From contig JAIXWV010000003.1 in the NCBI GenBank assembly GCA_027491115.1, positions 1 to 50,039 of the forward strand: a DNA stretch of 50,039 bases, given 5' to 3'. The notes under the pieces are model-generated. The model saw only the letters and a program-made list of their open reading frames with translations. It had not been told where the DNA came from and searched no databases. The position numbers and the translations under genes were made by a program. The DNA is from Pseudomonadota bacterium (lineage in GTDB: Bacteria; Bdellovibrionota; UBA1018; CAIMNF01). Within the stretch, counting starts at the first letter, position 1. The number at the start of each line of letters is the position of its first letter. Positions 8,203 to 21,519 of the stretch are shown here, one piece after another.

Positions 8203-8783
8203 CCCGAACTCCTCTTTCTGGCTTTGATCAGCTTTTTCTTCGCAAAGTCCTGCTTCAGTGGACTCAGTCGATCGATGAACAACGTGCCAACCAGGTGATC
8301 CATTTCGTGCTGGAGACATACTGATAGCAGCCCTTCGGCGGAGATTTCGCGACGAAGGCCGTCGAGATCCTGGTAGGCGACTTTGATTTTTTCAGACCGC
8401 TTCACCTCTGCGCTGTAGTCCGGGACGGAGAGACACGCCTCTTTCATTTCACTGGATCCTTCGCGCAGGATGATCTCAGGATTGATCAAGACCAGAGGCT
8501 TCTTGCCTGACACAAAAGAGCCGTTGATCCACTCAGATCCTTCGGGTGGTTTCTCTCCTGGCCTCAGGTCTTCCGCGTCAATTGAATCGTAGTCGGTGTC
8601 GACGACGATGATCCGCTCGAGAACCCCCACCTGGTTGGCCGCGAGACCGATGCCGGGGGCATGATACATGGTTTCGAGCATGTCCTCGGCAAGCTTACGA
8701 TGACGGGCTTCCACACGTTCCACGGGTGCAGCCCGTTGTGCCAGAACAGGGTCAGGAAAAGTGTAGATTTTCAGTCTGGCCAT
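8199..8783 (-). CDS. def: Peptide deformylase
   Basis: Metalloenzyme that removes the N-formyl group from nascent proteins. It has the three deformylase motifs: GIGLAANQVG at residues 44-53, EACLS at 115-119 with metal ligand Cys117, and HEMDH at 159-163 with ligands His159 and His163 and catalytic Glu160. Motif II reads EACLS, not the commonest EGCLS. The protein is 194 residues, longer than the roughly 170 of E. coli, because of an acidic insert at about residues 63-90 (DTDYDSIDAEDLRPGEKPP region). It lies 3 bases downstream of lptG and overlaps fmt by 4. Confidence 0.96.
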   Translation of the reverse strand: MARLKIYTFPDPVLAQRAAPVERVEARHRKLAEDMLETMYHAPGIGLAANQVGVLERIIVVDTDYDSIDAEDLRPGEKPPEGSEWINGSFVSGKKPLVLINPEIILREGSSEMKEACLSVPDYSAEVKRSEKIKVAYQDLDGLRREISAEGLLSVCLQHEMDHLVGTLFIDRLSPLKQDFAKKKLIKARKRSSG

Positions 8784-20497: not shown

Positions 20498-20911
20498 ATG
20501 ATGAAAATCGAGCAAGCCATGAAGTTCAAAAAACTCTTCGAAAACCAGAAGGCGGCGCTACTCTACTCCCACACACTGCTGAACGAAGATTTCAATCTCA
20601 AGACCGAAGAACTAGCCGACGAGGTCGATCTCAGCTCCGCCGAAGCCGAACAGGGCATGAAGCTACGCCTCAGGAACCGGGAAGCCCTACTCCTGAAGAA
20701 GATCGACGCCGCTCTCGAGAAGATCCAGGCCGGAACCTTCGGTGTTTGTGAATGTTGCGAGGAGAACATCGAGTTTTCCAGACTGGAAGTGCGCCCCACC
20801 GCCTCGTTGTGCCTGACCTGCAAAGAACAAGAGGAAATGCGGGAAACCCGCTCCGCGGACGGACGCAGATCCAAGAGCAGCGGCCTGAAGAATCATCTTC
20901 GGATCGCATAA
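20498..20911 (+). CDS. DksA/TraR-family zinc-finger regulator (first copy)
   Basis: A 137-residue protein that would bind the RNA polymerase secondary channel and modulate initiation, probably with ppGpp. The start is ATG 20498 with AAAGGAG eight bases upstream; the longer open frame is rejected. A helical region forms the coiled-coil arm, with Asp41 and Asp44 in ADEVDLSS matching the DxxDxA tip of DksA except for Ser at the Ala position. The zinc finger is Cys84/Cys87 and Cys105/Cys108 (two CxxC pairs, 17 residues apart). A basic tail follows. The gene stands alone on the plus strand, with regulatory elements on both sides. Confidence 0.88.
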   Translation: MMKIEQAMKFKKLFENQKAALLYSHTLLNEDFNLKTEELADEVDLSSAEAEQGMKLRLRNREALLLKKIDAALEKIQAGTFGVCECCEENIEFSRLEVRPTASLCLTCKEQEEMRETRSADGRRSKSSGLKNHLRIA

Positions 20912-21135
20912 CTTTCCGGGCAAGGGCAGACTTAAGGATGAGTCGCTGATCTGCCCCAACCAAACCGAGCCGTCCCGCTTGAGGGACACGTGAACACAAC
21001 CACCCACCAGGACGGAGGGTGTCGAGACGAAAGGCCTTCAGGACGAAGACCCTCAGTCACTCGAACGGATTCGAGCGCTTTATCTTGTGAAAAAGAACCC
21101 TGGCCCTCAAGGATGAAGGCCGGGGTTCTGCGTTT
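20912..21135 (+). ncRNA. Candidate CsrB/RsmY-like sponge RNA (or structured 3' UTR of the dksA-like gene)
   Basis: This 224-base gap contains no plausible gene but a chain of plus-strand hairpins. H1: 20924-20930 with 20950-20956, loop containing AAGGAT. H2: 20972-20976 with 20983-20987, no exposed GGA. H3: 21001-21005 with 21017-21021, loop holding AGGA and CGGA. H4: CTTC-AGGAC-GAAG at 21036-21048, a near-ideal CsrA site. H5: CTCGAA-CGGA-TTCGAG at 21060-21075. H6: terminator 21094-21129, loop containing AAGGAT. Five of six expose GGA, as in CsrB/RsmX/Y/Z sponges. I see no strong promoter of its own; CATAAC at 20906-20911 is only a weak -10. It may be made from the dksA-like transcript. Confidence 0.55.
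21089..21134. terminator. Bidirectional intrinsic terminator between two dksA-like genes
   Basis: AGAACCC plus GGCC at 21094-21105 pairs with GGCC plus GGGTTCT at 21118-21129, leaving one T-G mismatch and a 12-base loop. Read on the minus strand the stem is followed by TTTTT (bases 21090-21094 of the plus strand are A-rich), ending the run that finishes with the second dksA-like gene. Read on the plus strand it is followed by GCGTTTTC, a weaker U-tract, which would end the candidate sponge RNA. Confidence 0.8.
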
Positions 21136-21519
21136 TCAGTGAACCATGTGGCGAGCGCCGCGGAGGACGCGATCCTGATGATCGAGCTTCTCCTGGCACT
21201 GGATGCAGAACAAGGTGAGTCCGTTGGCAGCGAGGCGCTTCGGTTCGATTTCCTCGCCGCAGTCGACGCCGTCACAGAGTTCGTATTCATCCTTCTGGAT
21301 CTTTTCGAGAACCCGCTCGATGTTCCGGAGTTGCTTGCGGGCCTTCTCTCCCCACTGCATCATCCGGGATTGCTCGATGTAGGCGTTCGCCTGATCGACT
21401 TCGTCTTTGTCTTCCGGACGGGCGACCAGGTTTTCGCGGATCCTGTTCGCATCTTCGAGAATCAGAAGCCTCTGGGCTTCAAACACTTTCTGTCGCTTGG
21501 CCACTTCGGTCTTGCGCAT
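21136..21519 (-). CDS. DksA/TraR-family zinc-finger regulator (second copy)
   Basis: A 127-residue DksA/TraR-like protein. The coiled-coil tip reads Asp39-x-x-Asp42-x-Ala44, an exact DxxDxA motif as in DksA, so it is a good candidate for a functional polymerase-channel regulator. The zinc finger is unusual: the first pair is Cys82 and Cys87 (four residues between, CDGVDC) in place of CxxC, while the second is Cys105/Cys108. The sequence is only distantly similar to the neighbouring plus-strand copy, so this is not a recent tandem duplication. The start has GGGGA about six bases upstream. It lies 50 bases after mglA and ends at the terminator at 21094-21129. Confidence 0.88.
   Translation of the reverse strand: MRKTEVAKRQKVFEAQRLLILEDANRIRENLVARPEDKDEVDQANAYIEQSRMMQWGEKARKQLRNIERVLEKIQKDEYELCDGVDCGEEIEPKRLAANGLTLFCIQCQEKLDHQDRVLRGARHMVH

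Follow-up and report, generated by a model that had tools for sequence, protein, structure and literature searches.

The 224 bases that start right after the stop codon of a dksA-family gene, at positions 20912-21135 of the window (the whole analysed stretch of DNA, 50,039 nucleotides long), likely form a 3' untranslated region (UTR) that acts as a CsrA-titrating RNA, i.e. a sponge of the Csr/Rsm type. We assign a probability of about 0.75 to this reading. The hairpins, the conservation of their loops together with covariation of the stems, the specificity for this dksA orthologue, the presence of csrA and fliW and the hairpin in the flgF leader are shown. Binding of CsrA, its titration and the transcript with its ends are inferred.

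Six plus-strand hairpins were found in this element, and five of them carry GGA in the apical loop, the last one being the terminator hairpin with the loop AAGGAT (Table 1). The original prediction had described the same six hairpins, five GGA loops and terminator end; this description held and all its GGA coordinates are exact. In AGGACGGA at 21009-21016, which belongs to hairpin 3, the first GGA is looped and the second lies within the stem.

Table 1. Hairpins of the array and the two neighbouring dksA-family genes (positions in the window).
Feature	Start	End	Strand	Details
dksA-family gene, 137 aa	20498	20911	+	Pfam DksA_N + zf-dskA_traR; proposed host mRNA of the array
Hairpin 1	20924	20956	+	outer stem GGGCAGA/TCTGCCC, inner stem GACTT/GAGTC (20929-20944); loop AAGGAT 20934-20939; GGA 20936-20938
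Hairpin 2	20972	20987	+	GTCCC-GCTTGA-GGGAC; loop without GGA
Hairpin 3	21001	21021	+	CACCCACC-AGGAC-GGAGGGTG; GGA 21010-21012
Hairpin 4	21033	21051	+	GGCCTTC-AGGAC-GAAGACC; AGGAC 21040-21044; GGA 21041-21043
Hairpin 5	21060	21075	+	CTCGAA-CGGA-TTCGAG; CGGA 21066-21069; GGA 21067-21069
Hairpin 6	21095	21128	+	terminator hairpin, loop AAGGAT; GGA 21111-21113
Second dksA-family gene, 127 aa	21136	21519	-	convergent, ends at the same terminator region; Pfam and NCBIfam matches

The hairpins are present in both the MFE and the centroid structure. In the ensemble, the five loop GGAs are unpaired with probabilities of 0.84, 0.72, 0.95, 0.85 and 1.00, compared to a mean of 0.44 over all positions, and the folding of the region reaches z = -2.3 to -2.5 against dinucleotide shuffles. 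Buried GGA motifs, which would have refuted the prediction, can thus be excluded at the level of folding. The array ends in an intrinsic terminator, as judged from the hairpin in the window and from good U-tracts in relatives, e.g. L008 and L009. In the window itself the U-tract is weak (GCGTTTTC), and the plus-strand scan assigned no score to the terminator at 21095-21128. The motif CTTGTGA is kept between hairpin 5 and the terminator (window 21080-21095; L008 and L009, downstream of dksA), preceded in several relatives by a run of C. Pairing with CAAGG of the terminator loop or with another RNA is possible, but the motif remains unexplained. A 50-aa frame at 20990-21142 was rejected as coding, with no Pfam match and a one-base insertion within the stretch in the close relative G007.

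One rival explanation is chance, with GGAs that happen to lie in the usual structure of a 3' UTR and terminator. Strict hairpins were defined by a 4-6-nt loop, a stem of at least four contiguous pairs and GGA in the loop. The strict count in the window element is just three, against a shuffle mean of 0.26, and 7 of 5000 shuffles reach this number. On the window alone the case against chance is good, not overwhelming; the relatives decide. The genomic background consists of a sample of the genome (746 kb of strand-bases), not of the whole genome. In this sample, 250-nt segments with four strict hairpins occur only here and in one place with open reading frames, and no comparable intergenic GGA-hairpin cluster was found elsewhere. 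The other four-hairpin segment (L062, minus strand) was discarded, long open frames overlapping there on both strands. A search of the own genome with the hairpin model R1 scored only 150 of 448 candidates, so that its count of other clusters is a lower bound. The window's own hairpins were not listed in this search at E <= 10, because the model is too short for genome-wide discovery of single sites.

By DNA similarity alone, only the two closest relatives show the element in its full length, and dksA was therefore taken as the anchor for the comparison. The same design follows this dksA orthologue in all 11 loci of the genus, window included, with 3 to 6 strict GGA hairpins in the 300 nt after the stop codon and never fewer than three. 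After other dksA-family paralogues, three is not reached at any of 26 loci. About 49-50 of the 82 GGAs in the genus 3' UTRs (first 300 nt, ca. 60%) lie in apical loops, compared to 17/140 (12%) after the other paralogues (Fisher P about 1e-13 for 49/82). The share is 27/599 (4.5%) in the remainder of these loci on the same strand, 1/41 on the antisense strand and between 0 and 12% for 15 other trinucleotides in the genus UTRs.

The loops CAGGAUG, AAGGAU and AGGAC are constant across the relatives, and the stems vary. Where stem positions differ between the window and the two relatives nearest to it, pairing survives in 14 cases, 4 of which have both sides altered, and is lost in one; three pairs of hairpin 3 covary in these two relatives. 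A first hairpin alignment (A1) was dropped for its mixed loop lengths, and its successor (A2) is restricted to 5-nt loops. A common consensus, TTCAGGATGA, is seen in 22 pentaloop hairpins from across the genus, whose stems vary. The covariation alignment of the 22 hairpins is partly circular, as its rows were picked for pairing. Taken together, the retention across 11 orthologues, the P value of about 1e-13 against the other paralogues and the stem covariation leave chance all but excluded. Missing conservation of the GGA loops would also have refuted the prediction; they are kept in every genus orthologue.

Outside the genus, the enrichment is weak. After the nearest dksA genes in the order, 65/338 GGAs are looped and 7 of 50 loci have at least three hairpins (P about 0.04), L018, L021 and L096 being good candidates. 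Two genomes with csrA, G006 from the same genus and G012 from the same family, have no such array after their nearest dksA copies. We regard the conservation of the array as firm for the genus and as tentative beyond.

The array lies directly after the open reading frame on the same strand, and the terminator is common to both. That the upstream gene is dksA-like, as originally predicted, held in view of both Pfam domains; its score against the NCBIfam dksA model is 96 bits, under the cut-off of 115.5. Orthologues were found in ten other genomes of the genus, and the array follows one paralogue only among the dksA-family genes compared. The 2.5-Mb genome (G000) has five dksA-family matches, two of them convergent within the window.

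A sigma-70-type promoter-like site was found upstream of the dksA-family gene, and none on the plus strand at 20498-20912, the scan being limited to that promoter type. The absence of a promoter before the hairpins fits an origin from the dksA mRNA without proving it, and the predicted release from the 3' end of a dksA/traR mRNA is likewise compatible, not proven. Alternatively, the sponge could be encoded by an sRNA gene that stands alone, is driven by a promoter within the end of dksA and is expressed independently of dksA. RNAs of the CsrB/RsmY type are normally independent genes, and a second sRNA candidate in this genome comes with a promoter-like site of its own. Against this, no sigma-70-type site was detected in the scanned range, no more than about 60 nt separate the stop codon from the first hairpin in 11/11 genus loci and the array stays with one paralogue. 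We consider a free-standing gene unlikely.

The second candidate, a free-standing sRNA for which CsrA binding is inferred, lies outside the window (L076:1260-1425; G000:C44, about 8490-8660, plus strand), with an rsmI-type methyltransferase gene on one side and an HD-domain-like gene on the other. It combines a promoter-like TTGACC-16-TATCCT, the near-invariant 5' part GTGTGGTTGTGGTTGAGTCCAWGGATGGATTC and the terminator loop ATCAGGATGAT, with a fold z of -4.3. It occurs once in each of the 12 genomes of the genus and once in another family, and Rfam gave no match for L076:1260-1425. The near-invariant 5' part might contain a mini-ORF (L076:1280-1297, ATG TGT GGT TGT GGT TGA, MCGCG), and could equally be an unpaired pairing region. 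The hairpin GTCCGTTCAGGATGAACGGGG at L076:1500-1534, immediately ahead of the start of the HD-domain-like gene downstream, is likely a CsrA-controlled leader, again by inference.

The absence of csrA would have refuted the prediction as well. The genome holds a single csrA, encoding L4, R44 and N55, and fliW adjoins it. L4 and R44 of CsrA are RNA-contact residues, and N55 has been linked to FliW binding (PMC13407953). Among the relatives searched, csrA was found in 56/58 and fliW likewise in 56/58. The whole-genome search with the hairpin model revealed, among its best matches, a hairpin some 20 nt upstream of the start of an flgF-type flagellar basal-body rod gene, about 8 kb from csrA (L072; G000:C1:98068-98088, minus strand). 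In the relatives (L138-L151), comprising most of the genus and other families, the AGGA loop is kept and the stem varies: GTTTTC-AGGAA-GAAAAC, GTTTCC-AGGAT-GGAAAC and CCCCTC-AGGAT-GAGGGG, with CCTCC-AGGAT-GGAGG in another family. In a few relatives the hairpin is weak or absent. The flgF mRNA is a likely CsrA target, inferred without binding data.

Since the same loop with a varying stem sits upstream of flgF, as expected of a CsrA-regulated flagellar mRNA, we take CsrA to be the ligand of the array. The loop motif agrees with the CsrA consensus from SELEX and the CsrB repeat. It also agrees with the CANGGANG hexaloops cited in PMC4894983. In principle, the Shine-Dalgarno-like AGGAUG loops could bind another protein or pair with other RNA; AAGGAUG does resemble a ribosome-binding site, and there are no binding data. 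This explanation appears very unlikely, as the genome encodes a CsrA with the RNA-contacting residues and the same hairpin precedes flgF in the genome region holding csrA-fliW, where a CsrA target should carry it.

CsrA could further bind the 3' UTR for control of the dksA mRNA in cis (stability, RNase protection or termination) without being titrated. The hairpins are part of the mRNA itself, and for E. coli CsrA has been reported as a repressor of dksA (PMC7652899). For such control, however, one or two sites would be enough; the 3-6 strict hairpins that every orthologue has, with the loop consensus preserved, resemble titration, and no such hairpin was found at the dksA ribosome-binding site in the window sequence. 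Cis-control is therefore judged improbable.

According to the preferred sponge reading, the five GGA loops, the last of them in the terminator hairpin, would offer high-affinity sites to CsrA dimers, and sequestration of CsrA by the array would free CsrA-repressed mRNAs, e.g. flagellar ones. The array would be transcribed with dksA and could be active within the whole mRNA, as the Campylobacter jejuni flaA leader is (PMC4894983), or after release as a stable RNA of some 200 nt, as in the case of RsmU (PMC7694677). In either form, expression of this dksA would lower free CsrA and thereby CsrA activity, and Csr control would be coupled in cis to the DksA arm of stress control. In E. coli this link acts in trans: ppGpp and DksA activate CsrB/C, and CsrA represses dksA (PMC7652899). 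If the reading is true, one transcript bears both parts, and stringent-response and Csr circuits are joined in cis.

Several observations speak against a sponge. The window has only five GGA loops, fewer than CsrB (22 GGA, PMC7652899), the U-tract is poor and no Rfam family matches above the gathering score. The weak enrichment outside the genus and the two csrA-bearing genomes without the array point in the same direction.

CsrA-titrating sRNAs are mainly reported from Gammaproteobacteria, where FliW is absent; an anti-correlation has been reported between FliW and CsrB/C or its activators (PMC4894983, PMC7652899, PMC13407953). Here, csrA-fliW and the conserved GGA-hairpin array occur together within one genus, which makes the relation between FliW and titrating RNAs testable. 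If confirmed, control of CsrA by RNA and control by protein would be compatible, and a Csr sponge would exist outside Gammaproteobacteria, tied in cis to dksA in a FliW-bearing lineage related to the Bdellovibrio group. For the bolder reading, in which a non-gammaproteobacterial Csr sponge system exists alongside FliW, lies within a dksA-family 3' UTR and includes a second free-standing candidate sRNA, the balance tips only modestly in favour. No prior report of CsrA together with Bdellovibrio, Deltaproteobacteria or Bdellovibrionota was found in the openly licensed literature searched, and an earlier report elsewhere is not excluded. Attack-phase sRNAs of B. bacteriovorus HD100 are covered in PMC3627812.

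With CsrB/CsrC and RsmX/Y/Z of Gammaproteobacteria (Rfam CsrB RF00018) the array shares several short (A)GGA-loop hairpins, the CAGGAUG/AAGGAU motif, a terminator in last position and a predicted titration of CsrA. It differs by its location in a dksA-family 3' UTR instead of a separate gene, by the non-gammaproteobacterial lineage with FliW and by fewer sites. At the gathering threshold, Rfam recognized tRNA alone in the window, and a permissive search of the element gave chance-level matches only; the nearest match in a relative (L010) is CsrB with 18.3 bits (E = 0.3, cut-off 71). The predicted CsrB/RsmY-type sponge is hence supported as a functional class, and membership of these Rfam families failed.

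Further parallels are found among mRNA segments. The flaA mRNA leader of C. jejuni is a CsrA-titrating mRNA in a FliW bacterium, with two GGA hexaloop hairpins (PMC4894983), but it is a 5' leader and itself a CsrA target, not a dedicated sponge, whereas the array is a multi-site 3' UTR. For plasmid-encoded fimbriae, PMC4894983 discusses an mRNA leader that aids CsrB/C against CsrA. This mRNA segment helps to antagonize CsrA without being its target, as inferred for the array; it is a 5' leader, acts beside CsrB/C and belongs to a gammaproteobacterium. RsmU of Xanthomonas campestris (PMC7694677) is, like the array if its inferred CsrA binding holds, an RsmA/CsrA sponge from an mRNA 3' UTR (XC1332, comEA-like), with another host gene and in another lineage. 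RsmU still bound RsmA after changes of its GGA motifs, whereas the GGA loops are the conserved part of the array. By analogy, RsmU provides a precedent for the 3'-UTR origin of the array.
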